A stretch of DNA of 64,000 nucleotides. Source: Amphiura filiformis (Eukaryota > Echinodermata > Ophiuroidea > Amphilepidida > Amphiuridae). The notes beneath the pieces were generated by a model that was given only the letters and a program-made list of their open reading frames with translations, was not told where the DNA came from and did no database searches. The stretch covers positions 47,822,052-47,886,051 of the forward strand of contig NC_092635.1 in NCBI RefSeq assembly GCF_039555335.1, given 5' to 3'. Made by a program: the position numbers and the translations under genes. Positions 2,920 through 64,000 of this stretch are shown one piece after another (the first letter of the stretch is position 1; each line of letters begins with the position of its first letter).

Positions 2920-3985
2920 CTGGCTGATGGTGACTGTACTCACCAAGTTTTATGCCCATAAGACAGTTTTTACTAATTTGACCCCAGATGACCCCTTGTG
3001 ACCTCGAAATGACCATCCAAAATTTGGCTCTAAATGTTGACTGTACCCAGCACGTTTCATGCCCATATGACAGTTTATAGTAATTTGACCTTCGATGACC
3101 CCAAAATGACCTTCCAAAAATTTGACTCTAAAAGGTGACTGTACCCACCAAGTTTCATGCGCATACGACATTTTTTACTAATTTGACCTCAGATGACCCC
3201 TGGGTGACCCCGGATGACCCCAAAATGACCTTCCAAAAATTTGACTATAAAAGTTGACTGTACCCACCAAGTTTCATGCTCATACAATAGTTTTTACTAA
3301 TTTGACCTCAGATGACCCCTGGATGACCTCAGGTGATCTGTTCTGTCTGAGGTCCAGATGCACCCACCCACCAAGTTTGAGAACGTGCAACCCCTAGTCT
3401 CCGAGAAAATAGGCGGAAAACAGTTTTTACCAATTTGACCTCAGATGACCCCTGGGTGACCTTGACCCACTAATCAATACAAACGTGTTCTGTCTTAGGT
3501 CAAGATGCACCTACCCACCAAGTTTCATGCCCATATGACAGTTTTTACTAATTTGACCCCTAGATGACCTCTGGTGACCTTGACCCACTAACCAATACAA
3601 ACTTGTTCTGTCCTGGGTCAAGACGCACCCACCAAATCAAGTTTGAGGAACGTCGACCCCCAGTCTCCGAGAAAAACAGTTTTTACTAATTTGACCCCTG
3701 TATGACCTTACTAATTTGACCCCTAGATGACCTCTGGTGACCTTGACCCACTAACCAATACAAACTTGTTCTGTCCTGGGTCAAGACGCACCCACCCGTC
3801 AAGTTTGAGGAACGTGCGACCCCCAGTCTCCGAGAAAAACAGTTTTTACTAATTTGACCCCTGTATGACCTTGGGTGACCTTGACCCACTAACCAATACA
3901 AACTCGTTCTTCCTCATACCAAGCTGCACCCACCCACCAAGTTTGAGGAACGTGTGACCCCCAGTCTCCGAGAAAAGAGGCGGAC
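2920..3985 (-). repeat. GACC-rich degenerate tandem array
   Basis: Units of about 100-160 bp contain CAGTTTTTACTAATTTGACC, then (A)TGACCCC-rich blocks, then CCACCAAGTTT(C/G)A. Later units add TTGACCCACTAACCAATACA and CCCCCAGTCTCCGAGAAAA. The array ends at 3985 with a CGGACAGACAAACAGATACA tail, like the 3' tails of some RTE-type LINEs. Read on the minus strand, ORFs span several units only because stops are rare; they are not genes. Confidence 0.75.
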
Positions 3986-5229: not shown

Positions 5230-6605
5230 TTGAGACCATGTGGCTGGATGGTGCGTGGCGCTTCATCCAGAATTTCTCCCTGCTGGCACGGACGGTGTCA
5301 GGACGGTTACCTAAAGACTCAATCCCTGAAGGATCATGTCGGAGATAGAGTGGTTGGGGAGGTTAAAGTGATCACCAACAGGGGTGTCAAGCTTCTTGGT
5401 GTTGACTGTGGACCGGTGTCCATAAAACCGCTTCTTAAGTGCATTCTTGGTTTCTCCCACATACTGCATACCACAAACTCTGCAAGAAATGAGATACACT
5501 ACATTAGATGTGGTGCAGGTGATGTTGCCCCTGATCCTGTGGGAGGAATTGTTGGAATTACTGGTGACAGAATCCCTTCTTGGATATGGTCCTTGCAAAC
5601 AACACACCTGGAATCACATGTGACAGTACCCTGTTGTGTGGAAGGAATAGTATCAGAAAGAGGGGGGACTTCAGCTCTCACAAGACGATCTCTAAGATTG
5701 CGGGGACGTCTGTAGGCCAGGATGGGGTTATCGGGAACCGCTCGTTGTAGCCGATCTGAGGTTTGAAGTATATGGTGATTGTCATTAGTGATGCTGCGGA
5801 GAGGAGGGAGGTTAGGATGAAAAGTGACCACTTTAAGAGGGACTCTGGTATTGGTGTCTTGGCTTCTGGGCTTCTGCTTCAGTACATCTGACCTGGGAAG
5901 AGATTTGACCTTGTTGATGGCCTGCTGCACTTTGTGTGCGCTGTGTCCCCTAGTTGTAAGGTTCCTCTTGAGGTCCCTAGCATGCTGTGAAAAGTCAGAA
6001 TCATTAGTACAAATGTGGCGGAGGCGGAGAGCTTGGCTGTATGCTATACCACTTTTACAATGTTGGGGATGGCAACTGGAAGAGTGTAGATACTGGTGAC
6101 TGTCTGTGGGCTTGGTGTAGAGATCTGTGACAAGGGAGTCATTTTCCTTTCTGATGGTGACATCCAAGAAGTTGACCTGGTGATGAGAAAGTTCAGATGT
6201 GAATTTAATAGTTCTGTGGAAGGAATTGACATGGTCAAGGAAAGTGTGAAGGCTGTCTTCTTCTCTGGTCCAGATGAAAAACACATCGTCAATGTACCTC
6301 CACCAAATCCATGGACGACAAGGGCAGCATCAACATCTGCTCTTCAAGCCTAGACATGAAGAGGCAGGCGAACGACGGTGCCATGCGGGTCCCCATCGAT
6401 GTCCCAAATACCTGTAAATAGTGTTCTCCCATGAAGGGGAAATTGTTCTTAGTTAGTACATGATTCATGAGAGTCTTCAGATCATCAATGGGGGGACTGG
6501 TGTGGTCACTTCTAGACAGCGCTTCACAGGTAGCTGCAATTCCTTCACTGAATGGGATATTAGTATACAGGGATGACACATCACAAGTGCCAATGTCATT
6601 TGATC
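5230..6605 (-). pseudogene. Penelope-like retroelement: RT plus GIY-YIG, frameshifted and 5' truncated
   Basis: Penelope-like elements encode a telomerase-related RT and a C-terminal GIY-YIG endonuclease. On the minus strand: CDVSSLYTNIPFSEGI (about 6540-6590), GTSMGTRMAPSFACLFM (about 6350-6400), then after a frameshift the catalytic YIDD box (6285-6296) followed by VFFIWTREED. A 261-residue frame follows with IKFT, NFLDVTI and DLYTKPTD-x-HQYL, all family landmarks. After another frameshift near 5530-5560 comes the endonuclease: NVVYLISC-x-x-CGMQYVGET with FYGHRS (about 5400-5500). A further frameshift precedes the terminus near 5240-5310 (REKFWMK). Catalytic motifs survive but the frame is broken at least three times, and the N-terminal RT part is missing at a junction near 6600. 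Dead copy. Confidence 0.88.
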
Positions 6606-7979: not shown

Positions 7980-8424
7980 TTAAAGCCATATTATAACATT
8001 TGCTGAGGAGAACGCCCTCAAAATATTTTTAAATTCTGTTTTTTTACACGATTGTAATGTATTTTAGTCAATAAAGATACTCTGCAAAAATCAAGACTTT
8101 AGGTGCTGTAGTTTTGTCAAAATCCGAGATTTTGAATAAAACGATGGAACCGGCGTTTTATTATTACGATGGAAATGTTGGTCGAACACGTATGCACAGT
8201 ACGTACACGGTGTGCGGGATACACATACACACACAGAGGATCCTACCGTATTACAACCACGGGAGTAACATGCATGGGCGCTAGTAGTAAATTCCTATTT
8301 TCTATGCTTTACCTCACTTGTTCGGCTCAAAATTAAAAGGGGACATATCTGACAGTGAAAGCTAACATTTTATGGAAAATAAATACTAATCTATTTTTAC
8401 AGAAATGTTATAATATGGCTTTAA
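7980..8424. mobile_element. TTAA MITE family 3
   Basis: Ends TTAAAGCCATATTATAACAT and ATGTTATAATATGGCTTTAA are perfect inverted repeats over 20 bp and begin and end with TTAA. Length 445 bp with no ORF. The first bases (TTAAAGCCAT) are the same as in MITE family 1, so the two are related at their tips. A partial relative lies at about 46780-46860. Confidence 0.85.
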
Positions 8425-9018: not shown

Positions 9019-9679
9019 GTTAATATAGTACTTTGTAAATAAAAAAAGTCCAAAAATATTTTATGAAATGTAAAAATGTAAAAAGGTACATTTGTATGTA
9101 TAGCACATCATTGCATTCAGTCCCGACTATGGATAATTATGTAAGAAAAGAGGCCGTATTAAAAGTTGCACCTGAGTCCATAGCAGTCAGGTTTTCTTTA
9201 ACAAACATATGAATAGACCCCAGGCCGACTGTATTGTTTGAGAGTCGACTCCTATGGACTCAGATGTAACTTTTAACACTGTTTAAAATGGTCTCTTTTT
9301 TTTACTTAATGAACCATTGTGACTGAACGCAATGACGTGTGACGCTATAATTTGGTTCATATGTGTACAACAAATAAGGCTACCCATATATTTTTAAATG
9401 TTTGCATTTCACCAAATGTTTGCATTTCACCAAATATTTTTCGATTTACATTAAAAAGTATTTAGGGGGGAAGTTGTGGACCCTATATTGAGAGAAAAAA
9501 AGTCTTACAAACAAGATCAAGGTTAAATATTGTTTATTATTATAAAAAAATGTAATAATGAAGATATAAATATACATTTTCAAAAAGGAAATGATGAAAG
9601 TAATCAACTAGCATAACAGATTCATGTAAAGATAAGCAGTTTTTGAGAAAATCACAAAATTTGATTTCAATTTACTGCC
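9019..9679. other. Inverted-repeat-containing non-coding stretch
   Basis: An imperfect inverted repeat pairs GTTGCACCTGAGTCCATAG (about 9166) with CTATGGACTCAGATGTAACTT (about 9250). Flanks also pair: GCATTCAGTCCCGACTATGG near 9112 with GACTGAACGCAATGACG near 9320. This suggests a decayed MITE at about 9100-9350. The rest is AT-rich without recognisable content. Confidence 0.4.
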
Positions 9680-10051
9680 TTAAAGCCATAATGTACGATC
9701 TTATAATATGAAATTGGTTAATTTTTTCAAACCTGATTTTTTTGCATATTTGTAATGTTTACACATGTCCCAACTTGCACCTAAATGGAATCGGCCAAAT
9801 TTGTTGTCCTTGTAGGTCAACAGAGTAAAGTTCGACATATTATTATAATTTAAAAATTATGATATGTCCTCCCATAGAACTGCATGTTAAATGGCCAAAA
9901 TAACCAATGGGGTTTCTTTCACTGTACCATGTTATTTCAACTTAAAATGGACAGCAACCCTTCCCAGTAATTATTACTAATATTATTTCAACATTTTGAA
10001 TAAAGAATAACAAAATAAAAATTTGACGGAAATCGTACATTAAGGCTTTAA
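9680..10051 (+). mobile_element. TTAA MITE family 1, copy B
   Basis: Ends TTAAAGCCATAATGTACGAT and ATCGTACATTAAGGCTTTAA. It matches 2140-2517 in reverse orientation along its full length, including GCACCTAAATGGAATCGGCC and a degraded central palindrome. Length 372 bp. Confidence 0.85.
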
Positions 10052-50300: not shown

Positions 50301-50339
50301 GCAATAGTACGGTGTCTGATCTCCGCCAAACTCCCCCTT

Positions 50340-50945
50340 TTATAATTCATATCCCCAAATTTTAGTTTTCCCCTTTTGCGAAATGCTTTCCCCTTTTCAA
50401 ATATTTCCCCCTTTTAACTTTCCCCTTTTCAAATAGTTCCCCCTTTTCAACTTTCCCCCTTTTCAAATAGTTCCCCTTTTTCGACTTTCCCCTTTTCAAA
50501 TAGTTCCCCTTTTCGAATTTCCCCCTTTTCATATAGTTTCCCCTTTTCGAATTTCCCCTTTTCATATAGTTTCCCCTTTTCGACTTTCCCCTTTTCAAAT
50601 AGTTTCCCCTTTTCGACTTTCCCCTTTTCAAATAGTTTCCCCCTTTTCGACTTTCCCCCTTTTCATATAGTTTCCCCCTTTTCGAATCCCCCCTTTTCAA
50701 ATAATTACCCCCTTTTTTAATTTCCCCCTTTTCAAATAGTTTCCCCGTTTTCGAATTACCCCTTTACAAATAATACCCTTTTATTTTCACCCATTTTGTA
50801 AATAGTTCCCCTTTTACAAATAATCCCCTTTAACTTTCCTCCCGCTTTTCACAAATAGGTTCCCATTTTAAATAGTTTCTCCTTTTTTAAAATAATACTC
50901 CCTTTTGTTTTTAATACTCCCTTTTTGTTTGGGTACTCCCGTTTT
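50340..50945 (-). repeat. Minisatellite array in left terminal repeat
   Basis: Plus strand is CCCCTTTTC followed by GAATTTC, AAATAGTT, ATATAGTTT or GACTTT linkers, about every 15-16 bp and about 33-bp for the two-step unit. It degrades inward (50760-50945). Frames running through it encode low-complexity KRG repeats only because the array lacks stops; not genes. Confidence 0.88.
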
Positions 50946-51726
50946 TCCGTGCGTAGGCTTTACCAGTAAGCCTGGACCCTGGAGAGTACCGTGCACTCAC
51001 TAGAGCTCATTCCGCTACATCCATTATTGGAAAGGCGTTCTACATGAATTTGGATACCAACGTAGGTAGATTTATAGCCTGTTGTGCAAGCGCCCGCTAA
51101 ATTCAATGGGTTAGGGATCCGTCAACTTTTATGTACGTTTATAGGGGGGCTGTACAAAGAGCAAATCCGATATGATTGATAAACCAAATGATGTTCAGAA
51201 TGTTAAACAGGTGAAATGGCATGCATAAATATTTATGCTGGTCAAATTCATAGCAATGATGTTTGAAAGTATGTGAAGAACCTGTCTATAAACAGGGATA
51301 TGTCAGAGACAACAAACAACTGGCTGCCATTGTTACAGAAGCCTAGATAGGCCTAATAAGAATTGTTTGTGCTATATATTCAAAAGGTTTTTTTAAAGTT
51401 AGCACCAAAGTTTAAAACAAGCGGTCTTAACAGTGAAATGACAATAAAAGCATACATTTATAAAACGGGCCTGGACAAAATGGGCATTGCATATTTATGA
51501 CAAGTGTGGCTGTGTGATTTTATGCAACTTTATTTTTAAGCCAGTTCCGAGTAATTTTCACTATTCTTTGTTTGTCAACAATCCCGTTAACAATAAAAAT
51601 GTGCTTTCTAATCAAAGGCTCTATGGCATATATTCAATTGACCAGACAAATGAACCAGGGACTTCGGTCAGTGGTGCACGCCTCAAAAATCCAAAAAGAA
51701 TTAGTAGGCCCTATATGGTGTGCTTC

Positions 51727-52340
51727 TGTCACACTACACCGAATAGGTCTTCCGTACAAGAAACGGATGGTATTTTAGTAAATCCGTTGTTGTTCGTCAA
51801 TGATCGTTTATGTTCTTTTTATGTCCTGCTTTCATCCGCCAAATGCGTTTCGTGTTAGGTGATGTTCGTTAAGTCCGTCGGCATGCACAAAACTTGAAAC
51901 GGAGTGTACCGAATACACATGTTCGGTATTTATCCGATGTGTGTTCGTATGGTGCTGAATATTGCCGGAGTTTGTTCGCTCTCCTTTCGTTCATGTTCGT
52001 TCTTTGTTCGTTGCACTCGGCCCGTGTTCGTTGCAAATACGTTCCTGTGAGGCCTTCACCACCGGATAGCATATTTTTGCATTCGGTGATGTACGTTGAC
52101 CCAGACCGTGTTATGTCACACTACACCGGATCGGTCTTCCGTATAAGAAACGGATGGTATTTTAGCAAATCCGTTAGTGTTCGTCAATGTTCGTTTTATG
52201 TTCTTCATATGTCCTGCTATTATCCGCCAAATGCGTTTCGTGTTAGGTGATGTTTGTTTAGTCCGTCGACAATACGTTTCAAGTTTTGTGCATGCACAAA
52301 ACTTGAAACGGAAATGCTCGAATACACATGTTCGGAAGTT
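51727..52340 (+). repeat. Tandem duplication, period about 387 bp, in foldback interior
   Basis: TGTCACACTACACCG begins at 51727 and again at 52114, and the match continues through CCGCCAAATGCGTTTCGTGT and ACACATGTTCGG to TGTGTGTTCGTA. The second unit alone contains a 36-nt perfect palindrome. Words TGTTCGT and CGTTTTATGTTC recur throughout. Confidence 0.8.
52275..52310. repeat. 36-nt perfect palindrome
   Basis: CGTTTCAAGTTTTGTGCA followed directly by its complement TGCACAAAACTTGAAACG. In the first tandem unit only the right half is present (about 51882-51902), so one half was duplicated by inversion or lost. Confidence 0.85.
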
Positions 52341-53469
52341 GTCCGATGTGTGTTCGTACAGTTCTGTATATATACCCTGGGTTTGTTCGTTATTCTTTCG
52401 TTTATATACCGCAGGTGTTTGCAAGGTTTCGCAGGCGCTTGTGCCGGATGTAGGCCTATGGTGAACATGTGCATCAATCATGGGGTGGGGGGATTTTCTG
52501 AAGGGTGTGTGACGCAATATCATATTTCCCCCAGTACTTTAGTGACTGACAAGTAGAAAAAAGGGGGAAAGGAGAAAAAAAAGAAAAGAAAGTGAGAAAA
52601 ATTGAAGAGAGAAAAGAAGAGAAAAAGTTAAATTGCACGTAATTTAGTAGGCCTATGCATGTAAGTAGTATTGAGCATGTTGAGGAGGGGCACTTTCTGA
52701 AGGGTAGAGGACGCAATATCAAATTCCTACCAGTTTTAGTGATTGACAAGAAAGAAAAAGAAGAGAAAACATGGAAAAGGTTAAATTGTATGTTATTGAG
52801 TAGGCCCAGGATAGTATATAGTAAGCCTAAGTATAGGCCTGTGATTATTATAGGCAGTGCTTTAAATGTCGTTCCTTGGCCCAAAAGCCTGTGAAAATTA
52901 CTGCCGGCCTGTCGATATGTAGGGCCCGTGACATTTTGTCACCAAAATCAGTATTTAAGACGGACTTAGGCCTATTACTGACTTTATTTTGAAAAATGGA
53001 CAAGTCTTCCTTTTTGCTTCTGCTATGGACATCCACGTGTTATTTTTAAAACAATTGTTTATATTATACAATAATTGTGAAAACTTTTCAATGGCTTCAA
53101 TTAGGCTTTCGTTTCACCAATTTGTGGCTGTTTCAAACTAAAATAGTACCCAATAATAGTGCTAAAATTGATCCAAAAATGACAAATGGCTTCAATTGGG
53201 CCCTCATTGTCCAAAGGTTTTTCACCTCTATGCCCCATGACGCTGGTTGCCCTGATATATCAGATTTGTAGCCCTTTTGTACTTATTAGCCAATATTTGA
53301 CCATTTTCGTCAAAGTTTTCCCCTTAAAAGTTGTCTTTCCCCACTTTGTTCACCCTCTGAAAAAGTGCTTGCTACGTCACTGCCTCTAAGGGGTCAAAAA
53401 CCCTCTCAAACACCCTCTCCTCCCCCACTTTTCTGATAGTGTGGACGTCCCTGTTGGTGCCACATGCCA

Positions 53470-53815
53470 CGGATTCGCCGGTTATTTGTCGGACGTTGAA
53501 CGATTGAATATAAAACGCCTGCAGGATTATTAGCGGCCACAACGCATAGAGAGACGAACGGGAATCGGATCCCAAAATCCGGACATTTGTCGGACGTTGA
53601 CCCCCAAATCCGGTCATTTGTCGGACGTTGAACGATCGAATATAAGACGCCTGCAGGATTATTAGCGGCCACAACGCATAGAGAAACGAACGGGAATCGG
53701 ACCCCATATCCGGTCATTTGTCGGACGTTGAACGATCGGATATAAGACGCCTGCAGGGTTATTAGCGGCCACAACGCATAGAGAGACGAACGGGAATCGG
53801 ACCCAAAATCCCACC
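53470..53815 (+). repeat. Tandem repeat, unit about 100 bp, in foldback interior
   Basis: TTATTTGTCGGACGTTGAAC or TCATTTGTCGGACGTTGAAC begins at about 53481, 53614 and 53714, with a short partial unit at about 53581. Each unit contains CGCCTGCAGG(A/G)TTATTAGCGG and ACGCATAGAGA(G/A)ACGAACGG. Minus frames stay open through several units, but I see no protein family. Confidence 0.85.
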
Positions 53816-54349
53816 GAATCTTCTGCCGGACTGGTGATTTTTCCACCGAATAAAATATTTTTGTATTCGGTGATGTACGTTAATCCAGTCCGTCGTAGTG
53901 TGACAGACCTATTAGATGAAGAATTAAGTAGCAATTAAGCCTAGTCTTTTTTAAAAGTCGAGACAAGTCCAAAATAATAACGATTAATAAGGCAATCTAA
54001 TTGATTCGAATTCCAATCTCCTGGCCTTTTCCTGGGTCTATATTTAGTTGCATGATATAATTCAGATTTTCTTAAATGTAGATCTATATCCTATAGAATT
54101 AGAATTCATAAATTACATAATTATCATTTTATTCATTTTATTTAGCTCAAGAATTTGTATCAGACAATCACGTGCTTTCAACGTGTAGGCTGGACCTATT
54201 TCAATATCGAAGTACATGTATGCACGATCGAAGCATGAAGGCTGGCACTATAGATGGTCGGTGCCTACTGGTAAAGCCTACGCATCGTCAAACGGGGAAT
54301 AAAAAAGGAGTAAAAATTTAAGAAGGAGAAACTATTTTAATAGGGGATA

Positions 54350-55135
54350 TCTGTTTTAAAATGGTATTATGTAAAAGGTGAAAAGAAAATTCGAAAAGGG
54401 GAAACTATATGAAAAGGGGAAATTCGAAAAGGGGATATGAAAAGGGGAAATTCGAAAAGGGGGAAACTATATGAAAAGGGGAAATTCGAAAAGGGGAAAC
54501 TATATGAAAAGGGGAAATTCGAAAAGGGGAAACTATATGAAAAGGGGAAATTCGAAAAGGGGGAAACTATATGAAAAGGGGAAATTCGAAAAGGGGGGAA
54601 ACTATATGAAAAGGGGGAAATTCGAAAAGGGGGAAACTATATGAAAAGGGGGAAATTCGAAAAGGGGAAACTATATGAAAAGGGGGAAATTCGAAAAGGG
54701 GGGAAACTATGAAAAGGGGGGAAATTCGAAAAGGGGGAAACTATATGAAAGGGGAAATTCGAAAGGGGGAACTATATGAAAAGGGGAAATTCGAAAAGGG
54801 GAAACTATATGAAAAGGGGAAATTCGAAAAGGGGAAACATGAAAAGGGGGAAATTCGAAAAGGGGGAAACTATATGAAAAGGGGAAATTCGAAAAGGGGA
54901 AACTATATGAAAAGGGGAAATTCGAAAAGGGGGAAACATGAAAAGGGGGAAATTCGAAAAGGGGAAACTATATGAAAAGGGGGAAATTCGAAAAGGGGGA
55001 ACTATTTGAAAAAACTATTTGAAAAGGGGGAAAGTCGAAAAGGGGGGACTATTTGAAAAGGGAGAAAGAAACTATTGGAAAAGGGGGAAGGATAGACGGG
55101 AAAATATTTGAAAAAGGGGGAAAGCATTTCGCAAA
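54350..55135 (+). repeat. Minisatellite array in right terminal repeat
   Basis: Plus strand is GAAAAGGGG alternating with AAATTC and AAACTATAT linkers (two-step unit about 33 bp), about 20 copies of the pair at 54390-55000, then divergent units outward. This is the inverted counterpart of 50340-50945 but more homogeneous and longer, suggesting recent expansion. Nearly pure purine on this strand. Confidence 0.9.
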
Positions 55136-55211
55136 AAGGAGGAAAACTGAAAATTTGGGGAGATGAATTATAAAAGGGGGAGTTTGGCGGAGATCAGACA
55201 CCGTACAATAG

Positions 55212-55459
55212 CGTGGCCCACAGTAATCACGATAGTAAATCCAGAAAATGGAAAATGTACATTAGTTACGAAATTGTCACAATACAATGGTTGATTATAA
55301 TGTACAGAATGTTTTGATCTTCTACCGCCATATTGTAACATTTCTACAAGAAATAGAATTATATTTTTACCAACAAAATGTTAGTTTTCACTGTCAGATA
55401 TGTCCTCTTTTAATTTGGGCCCAAACAGATGAGGTAATACAAAGAAAATCGCTATATAA
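55212..55459. other. Spacer between the foldback element and a mariner-derived element
   Basis: About 250 bp of AT-rich sequence. Phrases GGAAAATGTACATTAGTT and AATTGTCACAATACAATGG resemble about 59340-59385 (AAGTGCACATTAGTTGC, ATTGTCACTATACAAT), so it is an older dispersed repeat. Confidence 0.45.
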
Positions 55460-55695
55460 TACAGGGTGTTCCAATAAAAATAGAACCCTTACTGTACGCT
55501 CTTTTTCTCCTACGAGGGGGTATCAAAAAGTTTTAGAAATCGCCCAGAAGTGAAAGAGCTATATCAATGAAATTTTGTCAGTGCAATCACGGGTCCTTAT
55601 GTACACTATGGTGCAAAAATGGTCTCATAAGTATGTTTACTTTTTTTTACAGGAGCTAGATGTCATTACCTGCCTATGTCACCATAACCAGCAAA

Positions 55696-55800
55696 ATGGA
55701 GAAAATTGAGGCATGCAGCATGATTAAGTTCCATTTTAAGGGTTACAGTGCCCAGAAAATCTGTGATAAAATAAAAATTCCTTTTCCAAAAAGCGACAGT
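55696..55800 (+). pseudogene. Transposase N-terminal helix-turn-helix fragment, left arm
   Basis: MEKIEACSMIKFHFKGYSAQ then KICDKIK resembles the first helix-turn-helix of mariner transposases (E/K-IR-x-x-IKF-x-F-x-x-G-x-S/T-x-x-E/K-I). An acceptor-like TTTTTTTTACAG precedes it at about 55640-55651. It ends after about 35 codons at the arm junction. Confidence 0.6.
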
Positions 55801-55857
55801 GACATATCACAATCACCACCGAAGATAACTTTCATTTCATCATCAATTTTCTAGGCA

Positions 55858-55930
55858 CTGCAACCCTTCAAACGCAGGATCTTAATGATGCTGCTTGCCT
55901 CAATTTTCTCAATCTTGCAGTTTATGCGCA
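55858..55930 (-). pseudogene. Transposase N-terminal fragment, right arm (inverted copy)
   Basis: Minus reading KIEKIEASSIIKILRLKGCSA is the inverted twin of 55696-55800, with substitutions that differ, so the two arms have diverged for some time. Confidence 0.6.
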
Positions 55931-56276
55931 GTAACTGGGGCAGCGGGTTATTGGCATCTAGTGCCACATGTAAAAAAGTAAACATACCTATGAGACCATT
56001 TTTGGACCATAATGTACATAAGGACCAGTGATTGCACTGACAAAATTTCATTGATATAGCTCTTTCACTTCTGGGCGATTTCTAAAACTTTTGATACCCC
56101 TCGTATTTCTGATTAATCAAATATATCTTGGTATGTAATGAAACCTTTATTCGTTAACTTTAACATGTTTAATAAACCGAAAGAAATATTTAAATCGGCT
56201 CACAACTTTTGAAGATATGCTCTTTTAAAGAAATGTACCCGTTTTTCACTCTGTCCACGGAGGAGGTTTGGCTACT

Positions 56277-56642
56277 TTAAAGCCATAATGTACGATCTTA
56301 TAATATGAAATTGGTTAATTTTTTTCAAACCTGATTTTTTTGCATATTTGTAATGTTTACACATGTCCAAACTTGCACCTAAATGGAATCGGCCAAATTT
56401 GTTGTCTTTGTAGGTCAACAGAGCAAAGTTCGACATATTATCATAATTTAAAAATTATGATAATATGTCCTCCCATAGAACTGCATGTTAAATGGTCAAA
56501 ATAACTAGAGGGGATTCTTTCACTTTACCTTGTTATTTCAACTTAAAATGGACAGCAACCCCTCTCGGCAGTTATTACTAAAATCATTTCAACATGTTGA
56601 ATAAAAAAAATAACAAAATTTAAATTTGACGGAAATCTTTAA
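56277..56642 (+). mobile_element. TTAA MITE family 1, copy C
   Basis: TTAAAGCCATAATGTACGAT at the left; at the right the terminal CGTACATTAAGGC is deleted, leaving GGAAATCTTTAA. The central palindrome is the best preserved of the three copies (ACATATTATCATAATTT and AAATTATGATAATATGT). It is nested in the mariner-derived element. Confidence 0.85.
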
Positions 56643-56849
56643 AGATTGAAAAGGAGTACACGTACCATGCATGAATATCACGCATTCCTCAATGATAACT
56701 TTATAAAATAACGAACTTTATTTAAGTGCCCTTACATACCAAAATACATTTGATCAATTTTTCAGAAATAGGAGAAAAAGAGGGTGCAATGGGGGATCTG
56801 TTTTTATTGGAACACCCTGTACCAGCGTATATGTAGCCAATGCGAGCCA

Positions 56850-62718: not shown

Positions 62719-63037
62719 TAAGTTATTTTGTAACAATAAGCCTGCATGTGCTCGTATGTTTGATTAGGTATATAGTTACCAATGATACCTAGATGCAGTT
62801 GCATAAAAAAGAAGCATTTTGAGCAATTAAGTTGGAGAATGGCATTTGTCATGTGATCTTTGACCTACAACATTGGTTCATGAACAAGTGATTGAGATGA
62901 CATCCTGCTGAAACAGATAATATGTATGCTACGTATGGCACGCCCAGCGCGACAAATTCCTTCGAGGTTACACCTCCATGCCGCGTTTAGCGCTACTAAT
63001 ACCTTACGTTTACGTCGCTAAATCACGAGTTAATTCG
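62719..63037 (+). repeat. Direct repeat, left copy (about 320 bp)
   Basis: TAAGTTATTTTGTAACAATA through CACGAGTTAATTCG is repeated at 63676-64000, nearly identical. The only visible differences are single substitutions and a 6-bp insertion (AGTACT) in the second copy. Confidence 0.95.
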
Positions 63038-63675: not shown

Positions 63676-64000
63676 TAAGTTATTTTGTAACAATAAGCCT
63701 GCATGTGCTCGTATATTTGATTAGGTATATAGTTACCAATGATACCTAGATGCAGTTGCATAAAAAAGAAGCATTTTGAGCAATTAAGTTGGAGAATGGC
63801 ATTTGTCATGTGATCTTTGACCTACAACATTGGTTCATGAACAAGTGATTGAGATGACATCCTGCTGAAACAGATAATATGTATGCTACGTATGGCACGC
63901 CCAGCGCGACAAATTCCTTCGAGGTTACACCTCCATGCCGCGTTTAGCGCTACTAGTACTAATACCTTACGTTTACGTCGCTAAATCACGAGTTAATTCG
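63676..64000 (+). repeat. Direct repeat, right copy, reaching the window edge
   Basis: Second copy of 62719-63037. The shared sequence continues to the last base of the window, so its true end is unknown. The period is about 957-963 bp. Confidence 0.95.

Follow-up and report, generated by a model that had tools for sequence, protein, structure and literature searches.

A non-autonomous transposon with foldback-type minisatellite ends in Amphiura filiformis, probably of the IS3EU kind

Boundaries, arms and arrays of the element

A sequence of 4,898 bp at 50308-55205 of the Amphiura filiformis window (the whole stretch of 64,000 nucleotides that was analysed) is enclosed by two exact copies of CAATAG. 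A single copy of it is present in the window. The left and right target-site duplications were located in the sequence at 50302..50307 and 55206..55211 (no strand assigned), and the direct repeat extends over these 6 bp and no further, the neighbouring bases being unlike (ATG-CAATAG on the left and CAATAG-CGT on the right). CAATAG is self-complementary at four of its six bases, so that the arm-to-arm BLAST match overruns each tip by 7 bases, across the duplication, and then ends; this partial self-complementarity weakens the element boundary slightly. Apart from the arm-to-arm match, no BLAST match within the window crosses the boundaries of the element. Its sequence has no BLAST match elsewhere in the window at E 1e-8, the best match of the arms outside the element but within the window is 27 bp long (E 0.13), and for the interior no other place in the window gives a match at E 0.01 or lower.

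The left terminal inverted repeat, of about 0.67 kb (50308..50976, + strand), was delimited by aligning it with the reverse-complemented right arm, and the same arm alignment gave the right terminal inverted repeat, of about 0.94 kb (54262..55205, - strand); the inner limits, 50976 and 54262, were chosen at the last good alignment match. Each arm is composed of three domains, namely an outer tip, a minisatellite array and an inner domain. The outer domain is about 90 bp long and begins TACGGTGTCTGATC, and its two copies differ by 2 substitutions and 3 gaps of 1-2 bases. On the left it occupies 50308..50396 (+), begins TACGG and is identical to the right tip over its first 43 bp in the alignment, so that the termini of the element read TACGG..CCGTA. 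C4T4 blocks like those of the array are present already inside the tip domain. The inner domain is diverged between the arms, yet it closes with an exact inverted match of 18 bp, GCGTAGGCTTTACCAGTA, with its left copy at 50951..50968 (+) and its right copy at 54266..54283 (-); in the window this 18-mer has no occurrence other than those at 50951 (+) and 54266 (-). Read 5' to 3', the strand rich in G and A points toward the tip in both arms.

Between tip and inner domain lies a minisatellite of the GGGGAAAA type, whose unit is about 33 bp long and has two parts; its C4-6T4 blocks are separated by a short spacer (CGACTTT or CGAATTT) that alternates with a long one (CAAATAGTT or CATATAGTTT). Tandem Repeats Finder placed the left array at 50386..50831 (+), where CAAATAGTT/CATATAGTTT and CGACTTT/CGAATTT spacers alternate in a dimer of about 33 bp, and reported period 33 with score 527 for 50386-50772 and period 66 with score 553 for 50386-50831. 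The right array (54387..55012, -), chiefly with CATATAGTTT and CGAATTT spacers, was found by the same program with periods 33/34 and scores 966/973. In the array cores every second block is spaced by 33.4 bp on average on the right (n=29 spacings) and by 33.5 bp on the left (n=18), and the arms contain 29 (left) and 43 (right) C3+T3+ blocks. The right array is fairly homogeneous, with 18 CGAATTT and 13 CATATAGTTT spacers, while the left one is mixed, and the right-array units nearest the tip look like the left type. Because spacer makeup differs by arm in this way, with left-like units next to the right tip, the arms would have expanded separately after the element was formed. Four claims of the initial annotation were confirmed by these results: the exact CAATAG duplications at both positions, the matching tips (inverted identity over 43 bp), the inverted repeats of about 0.67 and 0.94 kb (669 and 944 bp in the arm alignment) and their construction from a minisatellite, which Tandem Repeats Finder detected in both arms.

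Interior of the element and chance expectation of its ends

The middle domain (50977..54261, no strand) was found by an ORF profile scan to have no recognised coding capacity. None of the 25 stop-to-stop ORFs of at least 50 aa that overlap 50976-54262 reaches the Pfam cut-off, and the lack of a mobility gene inside, already noted in the initial annotation, thus held at this cut-off for all 25. Below the threshold the interior gave matches to seven Pfam families, among them no transposase or integrase, and all of these were rejected; the top one is DUF2306, at E 3e-4 and 21.4 bits against a cut-off of 31.6. As the scan covered interior ORFs of 50 aa and more, a much-decayed transposase remnant may be present in shorter frames or in those that the arm repeats create. 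Repeat comparison delimited a repeat-rich block within the middle domain (51726..53906, no strand), which is bounded by inverted CTGTCACACTAC / GTAGTGTGACAG. A unit of about 0.3 kb at 51724-51994 recurs in it at 52111-52405 with 80% identity, the stretch 53478-53811 contains tandem repeats of about 100 bp, and a perfect 36-bp palindrome was found at 52275-52310. The block is possibly a nested element in its own right; inspection by eye showed no target duplication around it.

How often such ends arise by chance was examined with two scans of the window. The pair scan collected, window-wide, exact 20-bp inverted pairs whose members are separated by 60 bp to 20 kb and flanked by the same 6 bp in direct orientation; 15 were found, with a non-palindromic flank only at 50308-55205. 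Flanks of the other 14 are palindromic (13 TTCGAA inside arrays and 1 AAATTT in another inverted repeat) and are a mere continuation of the inverted repeat. The motif scan, for TAYGG..CCRTA ends with an exact 6-bp direct flank at the same distances of 60 bp to 20 kb, returned 4 pairs in the window, with tip matches of 20/20 for the element under study and 11/20, 10/20 and 6/20 for the rest, and hence no second TAYGG..CCRTA element with more than 11/20. In 200 Markov-1 simulations of 64 kb the mean was 1.2 pairs and the top match 14/20, with none of the 200 reaching 16 or more. The 14-mer tip with 3 mismatches allowed showed no enrichment, 2 being found against 2.88 expected, and both finds are exact. 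There is good support for reading the locus as an intact, non-autonomous transposon whose ends are of the foldback type.

Probable assignment to IS3EU and rival readings

The length of the duplication and the tip are what a non-autonomous copy retains, and both point here to IS3EU, a known but little-studied group. Complete IS3EU families in Repbase are described in 2023 as always having TA..TA termini and usually 6-bp duplications, and GingerRoot is said there to make 6-bp duplications and to have mostly TA..TA ends, as far as the available excerpt goes (PMC10045372). For IS3EU families of rust fungi, excerpts of a 2025 study report 6-bp duplications, TIRs longer than 30 bp and termini of the form TAYGG..CCRTA (PMC12730594), and the fungal element Styx, whose transposase suggests a common origin with IS3EU, was searched for with a 36-bp TIR and a 6-bp duplication (PMC10853768). 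The element agrees with IS3EU / GingerRoot in its 6-bp duplication (CAATAG on both sides of the one copy) and in its TA..TA ends, TACGG..CCGTA falling within the published TAYGG..CCRTA, a consensus that comes from one fungal set, so that this comparison is with fungal tips. It differs in that the element is without a transposase and in its long minisatellite inverted repeats, the like of which the excerpts seen do not describe for IS3EU. No IS3EU-type DDD/E transposase was recognised in the 25 interior ORFs of at least 50 aa, as is expected for a non-autonomous copy. The initial annotation had found no group to suit these tips, and this was not supported: TACGG..CCGTA with 6 bp agrees with the published IS3EU features, and IS3EU is named in its place. 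Judging from the nucleotide sequence, the locus is probably a single insertion of a non-autonomous DNA transposon. A DDD/E transposase of the IS3EU/GingerRoot type, with its gene at another locus of the host, would have moved it in trans; this filing is based on one copy, on the length of its duplication and on five bases at each tip.

In the excerpted literature a foldback-type architecture is one in which long inverted repeats, each built of a tip, a tandem-repeat and an inner domain, enclose a variable middle. This was found here in full, and it leads to the thought of a foldback element that belongs to the Mutator lineage or to that of P (Galileo) and whose 6-bp duplication would be atypical. 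Such a lineage is quite unlikely. Tetris of Drosophila virilis, in the excerpts of its description, has the same plan of tip, tandem repeats, inner domain and non-coding middle, and its tandem unit likewise shares tip-domain sequence; its units, however, are of 220 bp, its duplications are of 8-10 bp, and its authors suggest Mutator. Galileo of the P superfamily resembles the element in its long inverted repeats with internal tandem repeats, the repeat number being independent per arm, but the excerpts imply 7-bp duplications and, for subfamily F of D. mojavensis, give a repeat length of about 210 bp. With exactly 6 bp duplicated here, both Mutator-type foldback elements (Tetris) and Galileo were rejected. 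Dada was rejected as well, since Dada-U6 and Dada-U1 are described, in the parts available, as being without terminal inverted repeats, which are long here. Sea urchin TU elements share long inverted repeats and an outer domain of short tandem units but differ in having 15-bp units and 8-bp duplications.

If instead a new DDE superfamily with 6-bp duplications had acquired IS3EU-like tips by convergence, the absence of any recognised transposase from the 25 interior ORFs of at least 50 aa would be in keeping with it; this is unlikely, as TAYGG..CCRTA with 6 bp already matches a named superfamily in the excerpts seen. The 6-bp duplication and inverted repeats would also agree with a deletion derivative of a Polinton/Maverick, a reading that is very improbable. 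Vertebrate Mavericks have AG-type end motifs, (AG)3 or (AGT)2, and most intact ones have eight conserved ORFs, as reported in the portion of the study available (PMC8097293). Here the tips read TACGG, no Maverick-type gene was matched in the 25 interior ORFs of at least 50 aa, and the conserved ORF set is absent, none of the 25 reaching the Pfam cut-off. Polinton / Maverick was rejected on both counts, and the misfit with Polintons that the initial annotation had stated was borne out by the end motifs of the vertebrate elements. Hardly credible, finally, is a host minisatellite that was duplicated in inverted orientation without any transposon: the arms are largely tandem repeat, but the same 6 bp stand in direct orientation on either side, and outside the arrays the tips agree over 43 bp, both of which speak against it.

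Proposed role of the arrays, novelty and neighbouring repeats

On the preferred assignment to IS3EU, a sequence of events can be proposed. An IS3EU-type transposase from another locus would bind the arms, cleave at the TA tips and join them to a target cut with a 6-base stagger. The GGGGAAAA / 33-bp arrays would be, by analogy, putative multiplied subterminal binding sites that raise the affinity for the enzyme; they are proposed as secondary binding sites because the DNA-binding domain of the Galileo transposase binds sites in long-TIR repeats in vitro, according to the excerpted study (PMC3688188). Each arm's array may later have expanded independently, whether through slippage or through unequal exchange. 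At about 33 bp, the paired unit is near three DNA turns and would set alternate blocks on one helix face, which is offered as a suggestion only.

The kind to which the element belongs is known, while the family is probably new; this novelty is provisional because Repbase may contain such an element. No description of an IS3EU foldback was found in the literature searched; the two words co-occur in an oyster satellite study, in the available part of which 'foldback' stands merely in a cited title. Exact searches gave no match for the 20-base tip or a 30-base array stretch in viral contigs, nor for a 34-base array stretch in a collection of genome contigs, and the interior had no match among plasmids. 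These blanks say little about copy number because the collections consist of viruses, prokaryotes and plasmids. The best reading is that the foldback architecture was gained independently of Galileo and Tetris. That this is the first IS3EU foldback lineage, with a retroviral-integrase-like transposase recruited by dozens of GGGGAAAA blocks per end, is a tentative reading, which we consider quite possible without leaning to it. If true, foldback architecture would have arisen convergently in at least three superfamilies of transposases, and satellite DNA would have a seedbed in IS3EU elements. A foldback within IS3EU would demonstrate that the swelling of ends by repeats does not depend on the type of transposase, and it would add a system for testing repeats as extra transposase-binding sites. 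The element furthermore bears on the origin of satellite DNA: in the Pacific oyster at least 2 of 52 satellites are labelled DNA/IS3EU, and in one beetle repeat family half of the unit resembles an IS3EU element, both according to excerpted reports.

Other repeats and a retroelement-like region were observed in the window. A repeat pair of about 80% identity in inverted orientation, 55327-55462 / 8284-8419, starts 116 bp to the right of the element's duplication. About 0.25 kb to the right of the foldback element lies a 53-bp inverted pair, 55460-55512 / 56769-56821, of 87% identity and starting near ACAGGGTGTTCC; the interval that it spans, 55460-56821, resembles a mariner-like element, and we presume that it may be one. 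Among 8 window ORFs scanned, the sole Pfam match is a GIY-YIG domain (E 5.5e-5) in a frame at 5311-6329 (-), which adjoins a frame with a YIDD-like reverse-transcriptase motif recognised by eye, and the region looks like a decayed Penelope-like retroelement. A dispersed family of about 0.37 kb and about 92% identity has at least three copies, at 2140-2521, 9678-10051 and 56273-56637, and a direct repeat of about 0.32 kb, 98% identical, is found at 62719-63037 and 63676-64000, reaching the window end. A tandem array of complex make-up occupies 2927-3984; its units measure about 98-163 bp and contain TGACCCC motifs.
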